The notes under the pieces are model-generated. The model was given only the letters and a program-made list of their open reading frames with translations, was not told the DNA's origin and made no database searches. A stretch of 22,969 bases of DNA from a virus, in the IMG/VR virus record IMGVR_UViG_3300031952_001342, positions 1 through 22,969 of that record, one strand, 5' to 3'. Below, piece after piece: positions 3,223 to 18,715 of this stretch (positions are counted from its first letter, which is position 1; each line of letters starts with the position of its first letter). The translations under genes were made by a program, and so were the position numbers.

Positions 3223-3546
3223 ATGGAAATTACACAAGAATTATTACAGGAAAAAATTAACAACGGAGAAAAATTAGTCGTGGACTTTTGGGCACCTTGG
3301 TGTGGTCCTTGTAAGATGATGAAGCCTGTTTTTGAGAAAGTTGCCGAGAAATATCGAAATGAAAATTCCGATGTTCAATTATATACATTGAACGTTGAAG
3401 AGAATAAGGAATTTTCTGCTGAGTTAGGCATTAGAGCTATCCCAACAATTAAATCTTTTAGTAATGGAGAAGAAAAGTTCTCAAGGCCAGGATTACAAAT
3501 GGAGGCTCAAATAAACGATATTGCAAATAATCTATTAAATGGATAA
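3223..3546 (+). CDS. trxA: Thioredoxin
   Basis: A 107-residue, full-length thioredoxin. The redox motif WCGPC is at 26-30 in the usual context DFWAPWCGPCK, and the cis-proline loop IPT is at 73-75. It is a cytoplasmic disulfide reductase normally recycled by thioredoxin reductase. In phages such proteins may feed phage ribonucleotide reductase or act as polymerase processivity factors, but neither partner is in this window. The last 8 nt overlap the start of the glutaredoxin-like gene in another frame, so the two are translationally linked. Confidence 0.92.
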   Translation: MEITQELLQEKINNGEKLVVDFWAPWCGPCKMMKPVFEKVAEKYRNENSDVQLYTLNVEENKEFSAELGIRAIPTIKSFSNGEEKFSRPGLQMEAQINDIANNLLNG

Positions 3547-3823
3547 GATATTAATTCTTTTCACTATGGATGGTTGTCCATATTGTGAAATGATGAAAGA
3601 ACAGTTGGATGCTATTGATGCTGATTACGTTGTTAGAGATATTAATGAACATGAAGAGGAGTATAATATGTTTGTTGAAATAACAGAAAATGACTTTGTA
3701 CCTGCTTTTATGATTGTAGAATCACCTGATGAAAATCCTAACACTATGTTATTTGTACCTGATAGAGATTTTGGTGAAATTGAAGAAGGTGTTAAAATAA
3801 TTAAAGAACATTTTAATTTATAA
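3539..3823 (+). CDS. Glutaredoxin-like protein
   Basis: A 94-residue protein with the glutaredoxin active site CPYC at 13-16 directly after the first beta strand (KILILFTMDG), and a Val-Pro (54-55) at the position of the cis-proline loop. The length fits glutaredoxins. The usual glutathione-contacting 'TVP' is replaced by FVP, so the thiol donor may not be glutathione; many Bacteroidetes lack glutathione. The ATG overlaps the thioredoxin stop by 8 nt. A terminator follows directly. The pairing implies a dedicated disulfide-reduction module. Confidence 0.82.
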   Translation: MDKILILFTMDGCPYCEMMKEQLDAIDADYVVRDINEHEEEYNMFVEITENDFVPAFMIVESPDENPNTMLFVPDRDFGEIEEGVKIIKEHFNL

Positions 3824-8351: not shown

Positions 8352-9545
8352 ATGATAAAAATTGAGTACATATGGTTAGACGGTTATACACCAGAACCTA
8401 ATTTAAGGAGTAAGATAAAAGTAATTGAAGGAGGAATTCCTGACTTATCAGAAGTACCTGAATGGAACTTTGACGGTTCGTCAACAAAACAAGCGGAGGG
8501 GTATAGTTCTGACGGTATATTAAAACCAGTTCGATTATATCGTGAGATGAATAGTAGTGATAAAGTATATGTTTTATGTGAGGTAATGAATCCTGACGGA
8601 ACACCACATGAATCAAATCATAGAGATATGTTAGGTGACGAGGTCAATGATATGTGGTTTGGGTTTGAACAAGAATATTTTATTCAAGAAGGTATTAGTA
8701 AACCAATCTTAGGATTTAACCGACCTCACGTTGAAGGACAAGGTAAATATTATTGTGGTGTTGGTAGTAATGTTGTTGGTCGAGAATTAGTTGAAGAACA
8801 TATGGACTTGTGTTTAAATATGGGTATTGAAATCACTGGTGTTAATGCTGAAGTTGCTTTAGGTCAATGGGAGTACCAAGTGTTCGCTAAAGGTAAGATT
8901 AAAGCTGGTGACGATTTATGGATGTCAAGATATTTGATGGAGAAATTATCTGAGAAATACGGATATCATATTAACTATCACCCAAAACCAATTACCTCGG
9001 GAGATTGGAATGGTTCAGGATTACACACAAACTTCTCAACAAAAAAGATGAGGGAAGTTGGTGGGGAAAGTTATTTCAAAACATTATTTAATGCTCTTGA
9101 ATCAAGAAGAGAGCAACATATCGAAGTCTACGGTTCTGATAATAATCTTAGATTAACTGGTAAACATGAAACACAATCAATTCACAAATTTAGTTGGGGT
9201 GTAAGTGACAGAGGAGCGTCAATTAGAGTTCCAAGGTCCGTTGCCGAATTATGGAAAGGTTATGTTGAAGATAGAAGACCAGCATCTAATGCAAACCCAT
9301 ACGAGGTTATTAAGGTGATAAGTGATACTATTGATATGGCGGATGAGTTATCGGTTACGTTAAATAATATGTATTCAAACGTTAACACTAAAAATTTTGA
9401 TGATTTAAAATCTAAATACAATGGAATACCAACCGCAGAAGAACTTTTGGATGAGTACAAAAATGATGATGAATATGAATTATCAGAAGAAATGACCAAT
9501 TCTAGCGCATATGTCAAACCAACATCAATTGACAATAAAAAATAA
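8352..9545 (+). CDS. Type II (eukaryotic-type) glutamine synthetase
   Basis: A 397-residue protein that joins ammonia to glutamate using ATP. All the blocks of GSII are visible: EYIWLDG (5-11), WNFDGSST (38-45), FGFEQEYF (103-110, metal-binding Glu), NAEVALGQWEYQV (165-177), GSGLHTNFST (221-230), KHETQSIHKFSWG (271-283), RGASIRVPRSV (287-297) and DRRPASNANPY (307-317). GSII enzymes usually stop at about 350-360 residues; here an acidic, Ser/Asn-rich tail of about 65 residues (331-397) follows, which is unusual. The catalytic residues look intact, so activity is likely. The gene sits in a phage-like operon between an unknown small gene (5 nt gap) and DUF3310 (4 nt gap), which argues it is a phage auxiliary metabolic gene and not host sequence. 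No adenylylation site is expected in this type. Confidence 0.93.
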   Translation: MIKIEYIWLDGYTPEPNLRSKIKVIEGGIPDLSEVPEWNFDGSSTKQAEGYSSDGILKPVRLYREMNSSDKVYVLCEVMNPDGTPHESNHRDMLGDEVNDMWFGFEQEYFIQEGISKPILGFNRPHVEGQGKYYCGVGSNVVGRELVEEHMDLCLNMGIEITGVNAEVALGQWEYQVFAKGKIKAGDDLWMSRYLMEKLSEKYGYHINYHPKPITSGDWNGSGLHTNFSTKKMREVGGESYFKTLFNALESRREQHIEVYGSDNNLRLTGKHETQSIHKFSWGVSDRGASIRVPRSVAELWKGYVEDRRPASNANPYEVIKVISDTIDMADELSVTLNNMYSNVNTKNFDDLKSKYNGIPTAEELLDEYKNDDEYELSEEMTNSSAYVKPTSIDNKK

Positions 9546-10856: not shown

Positions 10857-11966
10857 ATGAAAGGAATGAAACTTACTGAGTCTGAATTAAAAGACAGAAT
10901 AGTTCAAATTTATAAAGAGGAACAATATAAGATTCTCGAAGAAAAATGGAACAAATTATCTAAAGAAGATAAAATATTTGTTGTTGAATTTGCAAAAGAA
11001 ATATACCCTGAACAAGCCAAATTAATCAAAGAATCTAAATGGTATAATACCGTTGGGGATATTGTTGGTATCTTTGACCCAACAGGTGTTGTTGATATTG
11101 TTAATGGTATTAGTTACTGGAGACAAGGTGATAAATTATATGCACTTCTTTCATTAATCTCTGCGGTTCCTTACTTAGGTGACCTTATCGCTAAACCTGT
11201 TATTGGTGTTATGAAATTAGGTGGTGGTGCAGCTAAAGCATTTAAAGCAGCGGCCTTAACAGGTGATGCCGTTAAAATAGCAGGTACTGCAAGAAGAGCT
11301 GGTGGACCTATTGCTAAGATGGTTGAGACCGCTCCGAGTTGGGGTGAGAAATTAGTTACCTTTTTAAAAGGTTCTGTTGGTAGAGTTCCTATGTTAGGTT
11401 CTGGATTAGTTAAAGTTGTTGAAGAGTACGTTCAAATTTTTGGAAAAGCTGGAAAAGAAATGAAAGCGGGAACTGAAATTGGTAAAGGTGTTATGAAAAG
11501 TGAAAAAGCCTTAAGTGCGGTTGAAAAAGAGGAATTACTAAAACAAATGAGTAAAGACCAATCTTTCAGAGGGTTTAGAGATTATAAAGGAGGTTTACAA
11601 TCAATGTCAAGTAAATATATCTCAGGTGGTATGGGTCGTCTATTTGGTAATAGAGCGACAAGGTCGTTAATGAGAAGAACTAAATGGTATTTAGGTTTAT
11701 TAGATTGGTTAGGTATTGGTAACTTTGTTGGCCCTGAGGAATTAGAAAATATAGTTCCTAATTTAGAAGAAAGAGCTAATCAATATAGTGAGACACCTGA
11801 ATCACAAAGTTTATGGAACCAAGAGTTTGCTGCAGGTCAAACAACAGGAAATTCAGTTGTACCATCATTATCTACTGCAACACAATCAGCGTCAACTGTG
11901 GTTAAAACAGACGCATTCACATCATTAATTGGTTCACTATTAGGTGGAGGAAAAGCGTTAGTATGA
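10857..11966 (+). CDS. Tagged protein with pretoxin-like hydrophobic domain (putative membrane-active virion protein)
   Basis: A 369-residue protein. Residues 4-22 (MKLTESELKDRIVQIYKEE) are the shared tag. Residues about 64-120 (TVGDIVGIFDPTGVVDIVNG, then YALLSLISAVPYLGDLIAK) resemble the glycine-rich hydrophobic helical hairpins found before toxin domains in polymorphic toxins and in some phage virion proteins. A Gly/Ala/Lys-rich stretch follows (120-150), then basic segments, and a Ser/Thr-rich end closing with SLLGGGKALV. The hydrophobic hairpin suggests interaction with a membrane, for example during DNA entry; this is inference. The gene has a late-type motif upstream and overlaps the DHH gene by 4 nt (ATGA), so both are expressed together. 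An alternative start is ATG 10866. Confidence 0.78.
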   Translation: MKGMKLTESELKDRIVQIYKEEQYKILEEKWNKLSKEDKIFVVEFAKEIYPEQAKLIKESKWYNTVGDIVGIFDPTGVVDIVNGISYWRQGDKLYALLSLISAVPYLGDLIAKPVIGVMKLGGGAAKAFKAAALTGDAVKIAGTARRAGGPIAKMVETAPSWGEKLVTFLKGSVGRVPMLGSGLVKVVEEYVQIFGKAGKEMKAGTEIGKGVMKSEKALSAVEKEELLKQMSKDQSFRGFRDYKGGLQSMSSKYISGGMGRLFGNRATRSLMRRTKWYLGLLDWLGIGNFVGPEELENIVPNLEERANQYSETPESQSLWNQEFAAGQTTGNSVVPSLSTATQSASTVVKTDAFTSLIGSLLGGGKALV

Positions 11967-13369
11967 AAAAATTAATTAAAGAAAGTGGTATTAGGGATAT
12001 CAATAAGTTAGCTAAACGTTATTCTAAAGCTGAGATTTATTTTCACCAAGATTTAGATGGTGTGACAACCGCAATTGCGATGAAAAAATACCTTGAGGAT
12101 AATGGGATTAAAGTTGTTGATGCTCACGTTATTCAATATGGGGACAAAGAGTTCTCTGTAAAGAAGAACGATGCTCAAGGTGATATTATGCCAGTACTTG
12201 TGGATTTTGCTCACGGTAAACCAATGTTTGTTATCCATACAGACCACCACGATAGACAAGCGGGTGCGGAAGATACTAAATCAACTTCATTTAGAAGTTC
12301 ACGTTCAAATGTTGAAACAATATCTCAAGTTGTATCACCTAATGAAATATTTTCACCTGAAGACATTCAATTAATATCTATGGTTGACTCTGCTAATTAC
12401 GCAGCTAACGAAGTAACTGTTGACCAAGTAATAAATTACTTATTCAAATTAGATAAAGAAAAATCTTTAAGTAAAAACAAAACTGCCTTAGGTTTAGTTG
12501 CTAATAAGTTATTATTGGCGTTTAAAAATAAACCAGGGTTCTTAGAAGAACTTGTTATGGTTGGTACCCCATCACTTATGAATCTTGTTACTAACATAAA
12601 AAGAATCATGATTGAGAAAGGTTACGCCACTGTACCCGAATTACAGAAAAACAAAGAAGGTTATATTGACCAAATGAAAAACCACCATAATGTTAAAATT
12701 GAAGGTAACATTATTGTTCAATACGGAGGTGGTAGTATGATGAAACCTGGTTCTTATGATAGATACACACCTTTCAAAAATAACCCTGACGCTGATTTCT
12801 TAGTTATTGCTTGGCCATTAGGTTTAGTTCAAGCGTCTTGTAATCCTTATAAAAAAGAACGTGAGTTAAAAGGTGTTAACTTAGGTGAGATTGCTCAGGA
12901 AGTACTTGCTAAATGGGAAACACAATTACAAGAAAGACAAATACCCTTATCAACAATTAAATGGATTTCTGAAGGTTCAAAAGGATTTGGTCCTGAATCA
13001 GTTGGATTTACATTTAGAGACTTTGTCGCATTATATGGGGACAATTTTAAAACAATGGAGAATGGTAAAGAACATTTAACACAAATTGGTAAAATGATGG
13101 AAATTCCTTTTACTGAATTAAGTGAGGAAGAAATGAAAATGTTAGATGGTGTTACGATTAATGCTTGGGATTTAATTCAGGCTAATAGTGGCGGGCACAA
13201 ATGTATCACTAATATATCGGGTCTTAGTTATTTAGGCAGGTCTAAAAGACCACCAGCAGGAAAGTACAAATATAATGCTGAGTCAGATGATTCTCCTTAT
13301 GTGAAGTTTACTAAAATGGTTCAAAAAGAATTGGTAAATGTGTTACAGTCTAAAATTAATGAAGGTTAA
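11963..13369 (+). CDS. DHH-family phosphoesterase (RecJ/nanoRNase-like)
   Basis: A 468-residue protein. DHH family motifs are visible: motif I FHQDLDG (27-33), motif II with Asp81 (VLVDFAHG), motif III TDHHDRQ (93-99), motif IV with Asp142 (SMVDSAN), and a C-terminal DHHA1-like NSGGHKC (408-414). These residues bind Mn/Mg ions in RecJ single-strand exonucleases and nanoRNases; sequence alone does not fix the substrate. The protein opens with MKKLIKESG, which reads like the end of the shared tag (LIKE followed by S, an ideal L/I-x-E cut site). It overlaps the preceding tagged gene by ATGA and is therefore under the same late-type promoter. Its stop overlaps the stop of the opposing DUF192 gene by 4 bp. 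Confidence 0.85.
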   Translation: MKKLIKESGIRDINKLAKRYSKAEIYFHQDLDGVTTAIAMKKYLEDNGIKVVDAHVIQYGDKEFSVKKNDAQGDIMPVLVDFAHGKPMFVIHTDHHDRQAGAEDTKSTSFRSSRSNVETISQVVSPNEIFSPEDIQLISMVDSANYAANEVTVDQVINYLFKLDKEKSLSKNKTALGLVANKLLLAFKNKPGFLEELVMVGTPSLMNLVTNIKRIMIEKGYATVPELQKNKEGYIDQMKNHHNVKIEGNIIVQYGGGSMMKPGSYDRYTPFKNNPDADFLVIAWPLGLVQASCNPYKKERELKGVNLGEIAQEVLAKWETQLQERQIPLSTIKWISEGSKGFGPESVGFTFRDFVALYGDNFKTMENGKEHLTQIGKMMEIPFTELSEEEMKMLDGVTINAWDLIQANSGGHKCITNISGLSYLGRSKRPPAGKYKYNAESDDSPYVKFTKMVQKELVNVLQSKINEG

Positions 13370-13713
13370 AAATTAACTTCATCACCGATTTGTAATCCTA
13401 ATTTTTTTGCGGTACCACCCATAATTTCTAAAATCATATCACCTTCACCACAGTAATTACTACAATCTTCTGTGGTACACGGTTGGCAATTATTATGGAT
13501 TTCAATTATAGTATTACCATCAATAAAAATAATATCTAATGGAATGATACAGTTTTTCATCCAAAAACAATGTTCATCATCACCCATTAAAAATAACATA
13601 CCATTAAAGGTATTGTCAAATTTTCTACCCATCATACCCTTTTGAGTATCTTTGGACGAAACAACGGTTTTAACTTTAAATTTATTATTTTTTATACTGA
13701 TTATCATATCCAT
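13366..13713 (-). CDS. DUF192 family protein with extra cysteine cluster
   Basis: A 115-residue leftward gene. Family blocks are GMMGRKF (26-32), GMLFLM (38-43), FWMKNCIIPLDIIFID (50-65) and a final GDMILEIMGGTAKKLGLQIGDEV (91-113). DUF192 proteins occur in many bacteria, usually exported, but here there is no signal peptide, so the product should be cytoplasmic. Between residues 76 and 88 there are four cysteines (NCQPCTTEDCSNYC), a cluster that could bind metal or form disulfides; it is unusual in the family. On this strand TATATTTA, one base off TAnnTTTG, immediately abuts or overlaps the ATG, so the transcript may be leaderless. The function of the family is not known. Confidence 0.85.
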   Translation of the reverse strand: MDMIISIKNNKFKVKTVVSSKDTQKGMMGRKFDNTFNGMLFLMGDDEHCFWMKNCIIPLDIIFIDGNTIIEIHNNCQPCTTEDCSNYCGEGDMILEIMGGTAKKLGLQIGDEVNF

Positions 13714-13788
13714 AAATATACAATTTAATTAAAATAGAAATTATTAAATAAATTTTATATTAAAAGTAAACTTTTTAAAAAAACATTA

Positions 13789-13796
13789 TATTTATC
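13789..13796 (+). promoter_or_regulatory. Possible late-type motif before a putative small RNA
   Basis: TATTTATC resembles the late core, with the last base changed. Downstream there is no ATG before the terminator at 13841-13872, so a transcript from here would be non-coding. Weak on its own. Confidence 0.3.
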
Positions 13797-13876
13797 ATTT
13801 ACGAGCCCAACAACCCCCTTTCTTAAGTTGGTTAATATTTAAACCCTAACAGTGTAAAAATTGTTAGGGTTTTTAA
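13797..13876 (+). ncRNA. Putative small non-coding RNA upstream of smpB
   Basis: The 186-nt gap between the divergent DUF192 and smpB genes has a strong rightward terminator at 13841-13872 but no rightward gene to terminate: there is no ATG on the plus strand between 13714 and 13850. The simplest explanation is a short RNA of about 75-85 nt, with a 5-bp stem CCAAC (13807-13811)/GTTGG (13827-13831) and the terminator stem. It is not a tmRNA: it is too short and lacks a tag reading frame. The alternative is that the hairpin blocks read-through of antisense transcripts. No family recognised. Confidence 0.35.
13841..13876 (+). terminator. Strong rightward terminator before smpB
   Basis: AAACCCTAACA (13841-13851) and TGTTAGGGTTT (13862-13872) form a perfect 11-bp stem with a 10-nt loop, followed by TTAATTTTTAA. 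The smpB promoter box begins at 13888. Confidence 0.8.
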
Positions 13877-13887
13877 TTTTTAATTAC

Positions 13888-13895
13888 TATCTTTG
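13888..13895 (+). promoter_or_regulatory. Bacteroidetes-type -7 element for smpB, probably leaderless
   Basis: TATCTTTG is an exact TAnnTTTG match ending 4 nt before ATG 13900. Transcript start should fall at or next to the ATG. No clear -33 TTTG is seen. Confidence 0.65.
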
Positions 13896-13899
13896 CTTT

Positions 13900-14334
13900 A
13901 TGGGAAATCAAATCAACATAATAAATCGTAAAGTTAAATTTGAATATTCATTTATTGAAACTTTAATTGTTGGTATTAAATTGGTTGGACCTGAGGTTAA
14001 ATCAATTCGTAGTGGTAAAGTATCATTAGTTGATGCTTATTGTTTTTTTGTTGATAACGAGTTAGTGGTTAAAGGAATGAACATTCCTGAATATAAAATG
14101 GCGTACACTCACGAACCATTACGAGATAGAAAGTTATTACTTAAGAAAAAAGAAATTATTAAGTTACAAAAAGAACTTGTTAAAGGGTTAACATTAGTCC
14201 CGTACAGAATATTTTCAAATGATAGGGGGTTATTAAAGATGGAAATAGTTTTAGGTAAAGGTAAAAAATTACATGATAAGAGAGAATCTATTAAAGAAAG
14301 AGATATTAATAGAGAAATTATGCGTGGTATTTAA
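13900..14334 (+). CDS. smpB: SsrA-binding protein SmpB
   Basis: A 144-residue protein with the SmpB fold landmarks: NRKVKFEYSF (9-18), GPEVKSIRSGK (30-40), PLRDRKLLL (73-81), GLTLVPYRIF (96-105) and KGKKLHDKRESIKERD (120-135). SmpB carries tmRNA into stalled ribosomes for trans-translation. The C-terminal tail that reaches the mRNA channel is present (SIKERDINREIMRGI) but shorter by several residues than in E. coli. I chose ATG 13900 over 13861 because 13861 lies inside the terminator hairpin and the promoter box lies between them. No tmRNA gene is seen in the window, so the protein may work with host tmRNA. A phage copy of smpB is unusual. Confidence 0.92.
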   Translation: MGNQINIINRKVKFEYSFIETLIVGIKLVGPEVKSIRSGKVSLVDAYCFFVDNELVVKGMNIPEYKMAYTHEPLRDRKLLLKKKEIIKLQKELVKGLTLVPYRIFSNDRGLLKMEIVLGKGKKLHDKRESIKERDINREIMRGI

Positions 14335-14372: not shown

Positions 14373-15113
14373 ATGACAGAGACATTAACCCAAAAAGAAA
14401 TTGCAAAAACTAAATATCAAGACGCTAAACGTATTGCTTTAAGAAGTTATGACCAACGAAAGTTGGCGACTGATGATAACCAAAAAGTTTTTGAAGGTTT
14501 TTATAATGATATGGTTAAAGTATCTCCAGATTTTGAATTGGTTAAGAAACCAAATTCTGCGGACTATAAAGTTTGGATTGATAATTTTCCTGTAGAAACA
14601 TTTACATTAAACTATTTTGATTGTGAAATTAAATACACAGGTAAATTACCTGAAGTAGTGTCAAGTGGTAAAGTTCGTATTGATGTTAGTGAACAACATG
14701 TTACCCCAAGAGGTTCTTGGAGACAAAAAAGTTTGGGGTTTAAAATTAGAACTTCATTAGATTATACTGAAGGTCCATACTACAAATCAGGTAGAAATGT
14801 TGCTAAGAAAGTAATTGAGTATGTTGATTCTTTATGGGAGCAGGAAAAGGCTCGATTACTTAAACAAGATATTAGAAGTCGTGCTTTTAGAGAACTAATG
14901 AGTATGTTTAGATTTTCAATCATTGATTTTGGAACACCAACAAAACAAAACGAATTTAATTTCTTTACAGTAACTAATCTTAATAGAACCAAGATTGTTT
15001 TAGGGTACAGATATGATTCTGTTAATGATAAGATTGAATTTATTAATAAAGAGATTATTGTACCAAAAGAATTTAATTTAACTTATTTAGTAGAAAAATT
15101 AGGAGAATTGTAA
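14373..15113 (+). CDS. Hypothetical protein, 246 residues
   Basis: Begins MTETLTQKEIAKTKYQDAKR (a helical N-terminus), then a mixed strand/helix protein with RIDVSEQHVTPRGSWRQK near the middle and FRFSIIDFGTP later. No cysteine pair, nucleotide-binding loop or membrane segment is seen. I do not recognise a family. It has its own TATCTTTG promoter with a 20-nt A/C-rich leader, nearly identical to that of the zinc-finger gene at 21281, so it is probably an early, strongly expressed gene. The next gene starts 34 nt later behind another -7 box. Confidence 0.72.
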   Translation: MTETLTQKEIAKTKYQDAKRIALRSYDQRKLATDDNQKVFEGFYNDMVKVSPDFELVKKPNSADYKVWIDNFPVETFTLNYFDCEIKYTGKLPEVVSSGKVRIDVSEQHVTPRGSWRQKSLGFKIRTSLDYTEGPYYKSGRNVAKKVIEYVDSLWEQEKARLLKQDIRSRAFRELMSMFRFSIIDFGTPTKQNEFNFFTVTNLNRTKIVLGYRYDSVNDKIEFINKEIIVPKEFNLTYLVEKLGEL

Positions 15114-15147: not shown

Positions 15148-15423
15148 ATGAACACACAGACATATAACATCAGAATCGAGAACGAGAAATTTGGTAAACT
15201 TTTGAATGAAACGTTTATTGACGGAATCCAATTCAAATTATTTTTGAAGATGGTTAGTGGATGTTTGGAGTTAAAGAATGATTTAACATTCTTCAACGGA
15301 ATCGATTTCTTAATCAACATTCCTTACAAATTTTTGAAGGATTCAATTATTGTTACATCAACTAATGAGTACAATTTGGCTGACCACGCGAAAAGCAAAA
15401 TTGAGGCTTTAGTTACTAAATAA
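15148..15423 (+). CDS. Small hypothetical early protein, 91 residues
   Basis: Begins MNTQTYNIRIENEKFGKLLN and contains an alternating hydrophobic segment (DLTFFNGIDFLINIPYKFLK). No family recognised. It has its own TAnnTTTG box. Leucine codons are often TTG and asparagine/isoleucine codons often AAC/ATC, in contrast to the TTA/AAT/ATT habit of most neighbours; the zinc-finger gene at 21281 shares this bias. That suggests selection for strong early expression, or a different history. The next gene follows after 8 nt. Confidence 0.68.
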   Translation: MNTQTYNIRIENEKFGKLLNETFIDGIQFKLFLKMVSGCLELKNDLTFFNGIDFLINIPYKFLKDSIIVTSTNEYNLADHAKSKIEALVTK

Positions 15424-15431
15424 TATAAATT

Positions 15432-15692
15432 ATGAGTATTGAGACAGGGTTATTAATATCAATTTTAGTATCACTTTATATCATCTATAAGTTTTGGAAA
15501 AAAATTCTTAAAACTTTGTTGATTATAACAGTACTTTCTTTCACTTTTTTAGTAATTAAAGTAAAGAGTGTTTACGACAAACTAATGTCGAAAGAGACTA
15601 CTGAAATATCTAATAAAATAACTATTAACGAGAAACAACTTAATGAAGTATGGGAACTAACTACTACAGAATACCAAAATCATCTGAAATAG
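15432..15692 (+). CDS. Small membrane protein, 86 residues
   Basis: Two hydrophobic segments are visible, about residues 5-20 (TGLLISILVSLYIIYK) and 27-45 (KTLLIITVLSFTFLVIK), with lysines between them and a polar C-terminal part. This predicts a hairpin membrane protein, probably in the inner membrane. Such genes in phages can be holins, exclusion factors or inhibitors of host functions; there is no lysis enzyme nearby, so I assign no role. Its 3' end overlaps the MGTNYY gene by 43 nt. Confidence 0.65.
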   Translation: MSIETGLLISILVSLYIIYKFWKKILKTLLIITVLSFTFLVIKVKSVYDKLMSKETTEISNKITINEKQLNEVWELTTTEYQNHLK

Positions 15693-16138
15693 TAATCAGA
15701 TATCAAAAAATGTCCGATAAAATTACTCGATTAGACATATGGAATGTGAGTGACATCAGTGACTTGTTTTCAACCATACCTGTTAATAGTTTTGAAAGAA
15801 CCAACCCATGGGAAGAGTTCATTAACGGGTTAAAAATTCATTTAGGTAAACGTAGTTCAGGATGGAAGTTCTGTTGGAATTTCCACGACAACGAATACTT
15901 TTCAAATAAAGAAGAATTGTTTAAATTTATTCGTTCTGGACGTGTGGTTAATGAGTATGGTGAATTACAAGATAATGAAGAGTTTATCAAAATGGCATTA
16001 GACTGGGGCCAACCTGATGGTAATATCGTGACTCACGAATATGTTTCAGAACATATGTCTTTCATTAGTGATAAGAGTAGTTTTGTTGATAAAACGGTCG
16101 ACGGTCTTAGAGTATCGCCTGTTAAAGACTTCGCGTAA
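15650..16138 (+). CDS. MGTNYY family phage protein
   Basis: A 162-residue protein that starts MGTNYYRIP and contains IHLGKRSSGWKF (63-74) and a later EYGELQDNEEFIKMALDW. These are the hallmarks of a small protein family frequent in phages (MGTNYY at the N-terminus, then a HIGKSS-GW block, often with a CxxC zinc pair). Here the usual zinc-binding cysteines near the N-terminus are absent (RIPKSSEIVIRY). Function unknown. The family start fixes the ATG at 15650 even though this overlaps the membrane-protein gene by 43 nt. A structured RNA and terminator follow the stop. Confidence 0.75.
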   Translation: MGTNYYRIPKSSEIVIRYQKMSDKITRLDIWNVSDISDLFSTIPVNSFERTNPWEEFINGLKIHLGKRSSGWKFCWNFHDNEYFSNKEELFKFIRSGRVVNEYGELQDNEEFIKMALDWGQPDGNIVTHEYVSEHMSFISDKSSFVDKTVDGLRVSPVKDFA

Positions 16139-16164
16139 TATATTGTTTCCTTGTTTAGAAAAAT

Positions 16165-16225
16165 AAGGTGGTGGAACCTGACATATCCTGTCGGCCCTAA
16201 AGGAGACTTCGGTCTCCTTTTTTAT
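16165..16225 (+). ncRNA. Structured RNA tail after the MGTNYY gene (3' UTR or small RNA)
   Basis: After the stop at 16138 there is no ORF. A G-rich segment GGTGGTGGAACC (16168-16179) is followed by a hairpin with GACA/TGTC closed by CC/GG (16178-16194, one bulged T), then directly by the terminator. The region is markedly more GC-rich than the genome around it, as expected for a folded RNA. It could be a 3'-end-derived small RNA or an RNA-stabilising element. No known family recognised. Confidence 0.4.
16199..16224 (+). terminator. Terminator with TTCG tetraloop
   Basis: AAAGGAGAC (16199-16207), loop TTCG, GTCTCCTTT (16212-16220), then TTTTATTT. A perfect 9-bp stem and the best terminator in the window. 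Confidence 0.9.
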
Positions 16226-16243
16226 TTAAAATCAAAATGAATA

Positions 16244-16251
16244 TATTTATT
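16244..16251 (+). promoter_or_regulatory. Late-type promoter motif before the 125-residue gene
   Basis: TATTTATT in ATATATTTATTGATATAAAA, 16 nt before ATG 16268 and 19 nt after the terminator. Confidence 0.5.
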
Positions 16252-16267
16252 GATATAAAATATTCTA

Positions 16268-16645
16268 ATGGCGATATCAGTTAATTATAATCTTACAACA
16301 CTACCTTTAGCCTTAAAAAAAGGCAATTTTTATTTAGGTGTTGGAGATGTTGGTAAAGGACCAACTAGTGGAACTAGTTATTACCACGGTATAACACCTG
16401 TTCTTGGCGGATACACATTATATGTTACTCGAAGTGGTACTAACCAACCTAAGATATACACCGCATCAACTGACTCACAATTAATACTTTTAACTAATAC
16501 TTTATTTGGACAAACATTTACCGTAATATCTCAATGTAATAATTACTTTATAAGTAGGTCCGATACCAAGGATGGGGAGTATAAAAGAAATTATTATAAT
16601 GATGAAGAGAGTGCTCAAGCATTTTATGTATCTTTAATTAATTAA
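16268..16645 (+). CDS. Putative virion protein, 125 residues
   Basis: Begins MAISVNYNLTTLPLALKKGN and is rich in Gly, Ser, Thr and Tyr, with strand-like segments (FYLGVGDVGKGPTSGTSYYH, GGYTLYVTRSGTNQPKIYTA). It looks like a small beta-rich structural protein such as a head or tail decoration component. It lacks the shared tag but has a late-type motif upstream. Virion role is inferred from composition, promoter class and the tagged gene that follows 23 nt later. No named family recognised. Confidence 0.7.
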   Translation: MAISVNYNLTTLPLALKKGNFYLGVGDVGKGPTSGTSYYHGITPVLGGYTLYVTRSGTNQPKIYTASTDSQLILLTNTLFGQTFTVISQCNNYFISRSDTKDGEYKRNYYNDEESAQAFYVSLIN

Positions 16646-17051: not shown

Positions 17052-17948
17052 ATGAGTAAAATTATAGTAACAGGAGGTTTAGGTTTTATTGGGTCACACT
17101 TTGTAAATTATGTTAGAGAGAATACAGACCATGAAGTATTAATTATTGATAAACTCACATACGCAGGTAATCCTAATAATATTATATTACCAACCGCATA
17201 TCTAAAAAAAGATATATGTGATATAACACCTGAGGATTTAGGCGACTACGATTACATAGTTAATTTTGCTGCCGAGTCACACGTTGACAATTCAATCAAA
17301 GACGGATTACCATTTGTTAAATCAAATGTACAAGGGACTTTCAATATGATTGAGGTAGCAAGAAAAAACAAAAATCTAATTAAATTCTTACACATCTCAA
17401 CGGACGAAGTTTATGGTGACATAGATGAGTATTCGGCGATTGAAACCGATAACATTATCCCAAGTTCATATTATTCCGCAACTAAGGCGTCTGCAGATAT
17501 GTTGGTAACGTCTGCGGGTAGAACATATGGGTTTCCATACTTAATCACACGTACTTGTAATAATTACGGAGAAAACCAACACAACGAAAAATTTGTACCA
17601 AAGATTATTAACTCAATTAAAAAAGGTGATGAGGTACCAGTGTATGGTGATGGTGAACAAGTTCGGGAATGGATACATGCTGACGATAACGCCAAAGCGA
17701 TATTAACCCTATTAATGTCTGATGAGGTTAATACGGTATATAATATTGGGACTGGCGAATCGTATACTAATAACCAAATAATTGGAATAATTAGTAATAT
17801 TTTAGGTAAGGAAGTTAAGTTTAAATACGTTGAAGATAGACTGGGTCATGATAGAAGATATTCATTAAGTTCTTTAAAATATGAAAACAAATTTGGTGTT
17901 ATACAAAATACTAAACTAACTGAATGGTTAAAAAAAATAATTAATTAA
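17052..17948 (+). CDS. rmlB: dTDP-glucose 4,6-dehydratase
   Basis: A 298-residue extended short-chain dehydrogenase. The NAD-binding GGLGFIG is at 8-14, NFAAESHVDNSI at 71-82, the catalytic STDEVYG at 116-122 (Asp118-Glu119 pair typical of the dehydratase), YSATK at 141-145 (Tyr/Lys), and RTCNNYGENQHNEKFVPK with GDGEQVREWIHADD further on, all as in RmlB. It turns dTDP-glucose into dTDP-4-keto-6-deoxyglucose. It is shorter than most RmlB proteins (about 330-350 residues), with a trimmed C-terminus. rmlC lies 245 nt downstream, with one small gene between. rmlA and rmlD are not in the window, so the host may supply them or the product is another dTDP sugar. Confidence 0.92.
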   Translation: MSKIIVTGGLGFIGSHFVNYVRENTDHEVLIIDKLTYAGNPNNIILPTAYLKKDICDITPEDLGDYDYIVNFAAESHVDNSIKDGLPFVKSNVQGTFNMIEVARKNKNLIKFLHISTDEVYGDIDEYSAIETDNIIPSSYYSATKASADMLVTSAGRTYGFPYLITRTCNNYGENQHNEKFVPKIINSIKKGDEVPVYGDGEQVREWIHADDNAKAILTLLMSDEVNTVYNIGTGESYTNNQIIGIISNILGKEVKFKYVEDRLGHDRRYSLSSLKYENKFGVIQNTKLTEWLKKIIN

Positions 17949-18193: not shown

Positions 18194-18715
18194 ATGGAAG
18201 AAGGTTTATTAATATATAACTCAGTATTCGAAGATAATCGAGGAACATTTGCACCTTTACCTTTAAAATTTGGTGAAGGTAAATTATCGGTATTACGTAA
18301 AAATTGGGTACAAAGCAACGTTAGTGTTAACCCTAATAAATTTACGTTTAGAGGGTTACATTTCCAAGTAGGAGATTTCGCTCAGTCTAAGTTAATTAAG
18401 GTCATTACAGGGGAGATAATTGACTTTATCGTTGATATTAGACATAGTTCGCCTAACTATCTGAAGATTTATAAGTTTGTTGTAAAACCTAACAATGAAT
18501 TGTTTGTTCCAAAAGGATTTGCCCACGGGTTTATAACTACCGAGGATAATACGGTAGTTCAATACTTGGTGGATAACGACTACTCACCATTAAATGAAGG
18601 TTCTATTTTTTGGGGGGATTTTAATTTAATTAAACAAACAATAGAGAGAGTTATTGGTGATAGTAAATTAATCATTTCAACCAAGGATTTAGTAACTAAA
18701 AATTTTAATGTCTAA
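18194..18715 (+). CDS. rmlC: dTDP-4-dehydrorhamnose 3,5-epimerase-like protein
   Basis: A 173-residue cupin. RmlC landmarks: DNRGTF (14-19), FRGLHFQ (52-58, catalytic His56), SKLIKV (65-70, basic residue), VDIRHSSP (80-87), VPKGFAHGF (105-113, His111) and QYLVDNDYSP (123-132, Tyr124/Tyr130). These are the residues used for epimerisation of dTDP-4-keto-6-deoxyglucose. With RmlB it would yield dTDP-4-keto-L-rhamnose, or a related sugar if only one carbon is epimerised. The sugar may modify the virion, the host surface or DNA; no glycosyltransferase is in the window. The next gene overlaps its end by 8 nt. Confidence 0.88.
   Translation: MEEGLLIYNSVFEDNRGTFAPLPLKFGEGKLSVLRKNWVQSNVSVNPNKFTFRGLHFQVGDFAQSKLIKVITGEIIDFIVDIRHSSPNYLKIYKFVVKPNNELFVPKGFAHGFITTEDNTVVQYLVDNDYSPLNEGSIFWGDFNLIKQTIERVIGDSKLIISTKDLVTKNFNV

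Follow-up and report, generated by a model that had tools for sequence, protein, structure and literature searches.

A full-length SmpB in a large T4-like phage lineage and a conserved RNA element upstream of its gene

Introduction

What does a phage do with a gene for SmpB, a protein that normally works with tmRNA, where no tmRNA is found beside it? The question is raised by a stretch of 22,969 nucleotides (the window), which is the whole of the IMG/VR virus record IMGVR_UViG_3300031952_001342 and a linear fragment. A first-pass annotation had noticed there an SmpB with intact motifs downstream of a promoter, treated it by implication as a novelty, and proposed that the phage might boost host ribosome rescue, replace a lost host factor or, by way of a short C-terminal tail, interfere with rescue. 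The novelty must be given up, as huge phages are already known to encode both tmRNAs and SmpB (Al-Shayeb et al. 2020, PMC7162821). The window protein is a further member of this group, with an SmpB that lacks a phage tmRNA as its possible distinction; among bacteria, reduced genomes have been described that lost one of the partners (PMC4131195). What the window adds is a phage lineage of SmpB that is well supported and long conserved. It allows one to ask if phage growth is limited by ribosome rescue and if host tmRNA is served by an SmpB of viral origin.

Results

The window contig comes from a large, T4-like phage. It encodes the phage-typical DUF932 and DUF3310 proteins itself, and a 177-kb contig (G003, also L006) is syntenic with it at a DNA identity of about 86-90% and overlaps two shorter contigs of its own virus at 99.999-100% identity. 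Genes for a tail sheath, a baseplate wedge, a phage DNA polymerase, a ribonucleotide reductase and a DnaB-like helicase lie on this relative, and these structural and replication genes mark the window virus as a T4-like, contractile-tailed phage. The affinity of its SmpB together with the TAnnTTTG promoter box suggests a host among the Bacteroidota. All genomes of the window lineage are unclosed contigs.

The smpB reading frame comprises 144 codons, from an ATG at 13900 to a stop at 14332-14334 (Table 1). This ATG is taken as the start because it is kept in relatives and because the conserved TAnnTTTG box lies 4 nt upstream.

Table 1. Features of the smpB locus and further loci of the upstream element
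Feature	Position	Strand	Evidence or remark
DUF192 gene, divergent upstream neighbour of smpB	13366..13713	-	PF02643, E 3.3e-23
Putative phage promoter box TATATTTAT ahead of the candidate RNA	13787..13795	+	TATTTAT core conserved though outside the search pattern
Candidate small RNA or leader	13804..13881	+	Conserved arrangement; fold z -3.87; no Rfam match
Intrinsic terminator (hairpin, then T-run) closing the candidate RNA	13841..13881	+	Terminator scan; covariation
Bacteroidota-type -7 box TATCTTTG (pattern TAnnTTTG) of the smpB promoter, 4 nt upstream of the ATG	13888..13895	+	Conserved
smpB, full-length SmpB of 144 aa	13900..14334	+	PF01668; structure match; phage clade; dN/dS
ORF directly downstream of smpB	14373..15113	+	No Pfam or PHROG match
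ORF whose homologue directly follows the RNA element in phages without smpB	15148..15423	+	No Pfam match
Element locus in L292	5838-5947
Element locus in L290	1758-1853
Element locus in L291	4349-4444

The product is an SmpB by sequence and by predicted structure. The Pfam SmpB family (PF01668) matches residues 8-142 with an E of 1.7e-45 and 154.9 bits against a cut-off of 27, which excludes a chance match, and PHROG 6791, a family without an attached function, matches as well. By sequence, SmpB proteins are also the nearest chains in the PDB. The AlphaFold prediction has a mean pLDDT of 85 and a helix at 128-143, and its 21 best Foldseek matches in the PDB are all solved SmpB structures (top E 1.3e-13), the SmpB fold with its C-terminal helix being present in the predicted model.

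The tail is of ordinary length. Sixteen residues follow the DKR motif and end in the predicted helix. Of 43 Bacteroidota SmpBs compared, 42 have 16-22 residues there, 17 being the commonest number, and the remaining row was parsed at another site. Equivalents of KGKK, H136, DKR, K143, R145 and R153 are all kept; in E. coli SmpB, mutations of DKR, K143, R145, R153 and W147 impair tagging, and H136 drives EF-Tu activation (PMC4151336). The position of E. coli Trp147, a contact to S5, is Ile in the window protein, and Trp occurs there in none of the 42 parsed Bacteroidota SmpBs, so that this residue does not define the Bacteroidota group. With length and key residues normal for Bacteroidota, a short or defective tail is ruled out and the interference that had been built on it is undercut. 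The window protein is a conserved, selected, full-length SmpB.

Using tblastn, SmpB was found in Lak megaphages, in the LR7565xx records and in other phages (identity up to 53%), as well as in 37 IMG/VR loci, and the sequences closest to the window SmpB are all viral contigs. A first protein tree placed the window SmpB in a phage clade inside the Bacteroidota SmpBs; with the SmpBs found via the upstream element added, the clade was phage-only, with 35 rows and support of 99/95. Given such a clade among Bacteroidota SmpBs, smpB is a long-standing viral gene of this phage lineage, as opposed to one lately copied from a host. It is also under strong selection, with a dN/dS of 0.02-0.10 within the clade where dS is informative. 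The SmpBs of Lak and other megaphages were placed outside the clade, the deeper forks being weakly supported, and because of this placement it appears that phages acquired smpB more than once.

Compared with the SmpB of Bacteroidota themselves (PF01668), the window copy is alike in full length, motifs and tail layout, and differs in being phage-encoded, in forming a separate clade and in having no adjoining tmRNA in the sequenced part. With the huge-phage SmpB and tmRNA systems (PMC7162821; Lak; LR7565xx) it shares a very large phage genome, in many cases of Bacteroidota, and 43-53% identity; the differences are that SmpBs of the window lineage make up a clade of their own and that contigs of up to 215 kb show no tmRNA.

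No tmRNA is present in the window, which is a fragment, and on this the first-pass annotation was right. Looking beyond the window, as it had proposed, yielded no tmRNA, no candidates and no tRNA in the 177 kb of G003 around smpB, and no tmRNA in the 215-, 127- and 98-kb smpB-bearing contigs of the lineage. Eight SmpB-bearing records did contain a tmRNA scoring above cut-off in the same search; one was seen in Lak phages, in LR756504 and in several SmpB-encoding phages of IMG/VR. The 735-kb record LR756501 gave a weak tmRNA match (21 bits) that continues directly into a group I intron (96 bits), at L181:660-1232 on the minus strand, near 718.2-718.7 kb of LR756501.1. This tmRNA looks to be split by the intron near the T-loop, which would explain how it escapes both ARAGORN and the Rfam gathering cut-off; intron-interrupted tmRNA genes occur in bacteria (PMC11915505). 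That it was flagged at all argues that tmRNA detection was fairly sensitive. A second rescue factor was sought in the form of an ArfB/RF-1 domain; the window lineage has none, and three tmRNA-bearing phages have one. On these searches, SmpB seems to travel without tmRNA in the window lineage.

One member of the window's SmpB clade (L031, on contig G016) does carry its own tmRNA, 5 kb from smpB, with a predicted tag peptide. The tags predicted for the phage tmRNAs L057 (G016:6451-6857) and L059 (G014:142604-142970) are GNVYNNMEVAGLLATSKVAA and ATFLNGNIFNIDENFLANASVEVVAGEAIAA; the AA end is kept in both, and they are longer than expected of bacterial tags. In sister phages a gap of ~400 bp separates DUF192 from smpB, and a hidden tmRNA there was rejected since the gap, judged by eye, encodes a Nudix-like protein. 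This gene, likewise assigned by eye, lies between DUF192 and the RNA element at L290:1321-1743, at L291:3911-4333 and in sister contigs G009-G011, and is absent from the window. In another phage whose SmpB belongs to the window's clade (G020; L179/L180), smpB starts at 23992 within a translation gene cluster, ~490 bp 3' of a 25-tRNA array (tRNAs at 17510-23505).

The newer part of this locus, relative to the phage SmpB, is a conserved and apparently undescribed RNA element that occupies 13787-13895, between the divergent DUF192 gene and smpB. It consists, in order, of a phage-type promoter box, an RNA of ~75 nt, a terminator and a host-type promoter box. The candidate RNA would form a stem (CCAAC, 13807-13811, with GTTGG, 13827-13831) closing on the loop CCCCCTTTCT (13814-13823), followed by the terminator hairpin. 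We searched IMG/VR with a pattern restricted to the loop core and its flanking bases, the promoter box and terminator being excluded, and recovered 84 stretches, about a dozen of which would be estimated by chance. Among the matches listed, the whole arrangement including promoter box and terminator was found in 77 of 80, so that about 77 IMG/VR contigs (L186-L269) carry it. An SmpB ORF comes next in 51; in most of the others the next gene is a homologue of the 15148-15423 ORF, or a small membrane-type or other ORF. When loci were reached independently of the pattern, by way of the protein encoded at 15148-15423, the element was again present (L290 and L291), in diverged form in L292, where the neighbours are the same and smpB is absent. 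The element stands at the head of the smpB operon and is kept also in phages without smpB. A tmRNA remnant or an obligate partner of SmpB was considered for it and rejected, the element being far too short and occurring without smpB.

The fold of the window RNA was better than those of all 200 shuffles. In the terminator, 9 of 10 pairs carry changes on both sides across 39 distinct sequences and slid controls collapse, in an alignment that was fitted to a model containing the terminator pairs and so leans towards them. The 5' stem is nearly invariant in the same 39 sequences, and its covariation speaks neither for nor against pairing. In Rfam 15 the element had no match at gathering, the best weak match having an E of 0.22 at half its cut-off. 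Covariance-model hits outside the lineage, in Lak, LR7565xx and other tmRNA-bearing phages, were weak and many were to the terminator only.

In the intergenic DNA of G003 (L146-L154) the TATATTTAT motif occurs 12 times against 3.5 in shuffles; 11 G003 genes have it no more than 19 nt ahead of their ATG, and it is likely a phage promoter motif. The promoter before smpB, which had been called early-type, takes the form of the Bacteroidota-type TATCTTTG box, which is conserved in the phage's own lineage and in sister phages and recurs in LR756502 and LR745206; its position 4 nt before the ATG suggests a leaderless or near-leaderless smpB mRNA. TAnnTTTG was not enriched over the window as a whole (42 versus 37 expected), and its occurrence right before the ATG in 3 of 36 genes, with 0 in the control, is only suggestive. 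A sigma-70 promoter scan was uninformative, with 12 sites versus 11.9 expected. We take the element for either a small RNA with transcription of its own or a leader that acts by attenuation, and the terminator ahead of smpB's own promoter box favours a separate RNA.

Discussion

We think that the phage SmpB probably works with host tmRNA and frees ribosomes during infection; among the three roles first proposed, boosting host rescue is the best remaining. A T4-like, contractile-tailed large phage of a Bacteroidota host would encode a functional SmpB and express it from a host-type promoter; the protein would bind host tmRNA, and trans-translation would be sustained during infection so that ribosomes stalled on broken mRNAs are freed. 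Both the use of host tmRNA and the benefit to the phage are inferred. Replacement of a lost host factor found no support, as Bacteroidota genomes commonly hold their own smpB.

A point against host tmRNA as the partner is the G016 phage, which combines an SmpB of the same clade with a tmRNA of its own. By extension, the window phage might encode a complete trans-translation pair, its tmRNA lying elsewhere in the genome beyond the sequenced fragments as in other huge phages. We regard this as a possibility, though a rather unlikely one. The tmRNAs of Lak phages, LR756504 and several SmpB-bearing IMG/VR phages fit it, and related Bacteroidetes lake phages are complete at 293-331 kb (PMC9723584), so that lineage contigs of 177-215 kb may be partial. 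It has to contend, however, with the lack of a match in the 177 kb around smpB or in the three other contigs, from a search sensitive enough to flag the intron-split tmRNA of LR756501.

We consider it unlikely that SmpB acts outside rescue, by titrating or blocking host tmRNA or through a tmRNA-independent function. The lack of any phage tmRNA in the window and in the 177-, 215-, 127- and 98-kb contigs would suit such an action, and possible tmRNA-independent roles of SmpB have been discussed for bacteria without tmRNA (PMC4131195), but an inhibitor would be expected to lose its tail functions, and here selection has kept a tail that matches ordinary Bacteroidota SmpBs in its length, its helix and its rescue residues. 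Finally, it is highly improbable that the gene is a normal bacterial smpB from a piece of host chromosome, or that the phage copied it lately from a host, in spite of an identity to Bacteroidota SmpBs of up to about 57%: phage genes for structure and replication lie on the syntenic relative of 177 kb, the clade is phage-only and all closest sequences are on viral contigs, which rules it out. The two findings that the first-pass annotation had named as refuting a phage gene, a contig from a host chromosome and a tree position as the host's usual copy, were thus looked for and did not turn up.

The role of the upstream element invites a more speculative idea. Its loop reads (A)CCCC(C)UUUCU and is similar to the anti-Shine-Dalgarno tail of 16S rRNA, whose core is CCUCC and whose full sequence is ACCUCCUUUCU; a search of 12 Bacteroidota genomes with a 16S tail pattern gave no match. 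Bacterial regulatory small RNAs with C-rich loops pair with Shine-Dalgarno sequences. The element resembles these as a short candidate RNA with a C-rich loop on a stem and an intrinsic terminator, and differs in being phage-encoded, in lacking an Rfam match and in being known here from its sequence. Bacteroidota hide their anti-Shine-Dalgarno tail, and strong Shine-Dalgarno sequences are found chiefly at rpsU and rpsR (PMC9976891). In computed duplex energies with the loops of six lineage members, 8 of 12 Bacteroidota rpsU leaders beat at least 157 of 159 other leaders. The loop of L292, the most diverged member, pairs less well with rpsU leaders, and the reversed loop, too, forms duplexes with some of these leaders, reaching -14.2 kcal/mol. 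We treat the predicted pairing of loop and rpsU as a lead only, as any sequence resembling the anti-Shine-Dalgarno would pair in this way.

Taken further, an RNA of ~75 nt made from the phage promoter might mimic the 16S rRNA 3' tail, pair with Shine-Dalgarno sequences and regulate both the supply of bS21 and the specificity of ribosomes; the neighbouring SmpB would keep those ribosomes free, and the two would form a cassette for the takeover of translation. Control of bS21 would follow from the rarity of Shine-Dalgarno sequences in Bacteroidota and their concentration at its gene, rpsU. We hold this scheme to be improbable as it stands. If the element is transcribed, it would offer a handle on phage control of Bacteroidota ribosomes, which hide their anti-Shine-Dalgarno.

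The bS21-encoding Bacteroidetes lake phages of Chen et al. 2022 (PMC9723584) are similar to the window lineage in being large, with about 31% GC, predicted Bacteroidetes hosts and a phage-borne translation factor; moreover G021, a contig with the RNA element, encodes bS21. Unlike in those phages, bS21 was not found in the 177-kb relative. That paper makes no mention of SmpB or tmRNA. Genes for bS21-like proteins (PF01165) were observed at G021:27723-27878 (minus strand), a 272-kb contig that has the RNA element without smpB, and at G016:280791-280940 (plus strand), the tmRNA-bearing phage; the G021 bS21 leader carries the Shine-Dalgarno-like GGAGGGAG.

Several further observations concern the contigs themselves. 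Host-like metabolic genes of the window, at 3223-3823, 8352-9545, 17052-17948 and 18194-18715, encode thioredoxin, glutaredoxin, a glutamine synthetase-like protein, a sugar-nucleotide epimerase/dehydratase and dTDP-4-dehydrorhamnose 3,5-epimerase. The window gene at 11963-13369 encodes a DHH-family-like protein, with a weak match to PF01368, whose INPHARED homologues are confined to LR745206, LR756502 and, in part, LR756501/LR756503. On G003, two repetitive stretches, 98255-99569 and 15640-16571, are related to each other though far apart; the former sits within a 1164-aa ORF (96663-100157), and the two possibly belong to diversified surface proteins.
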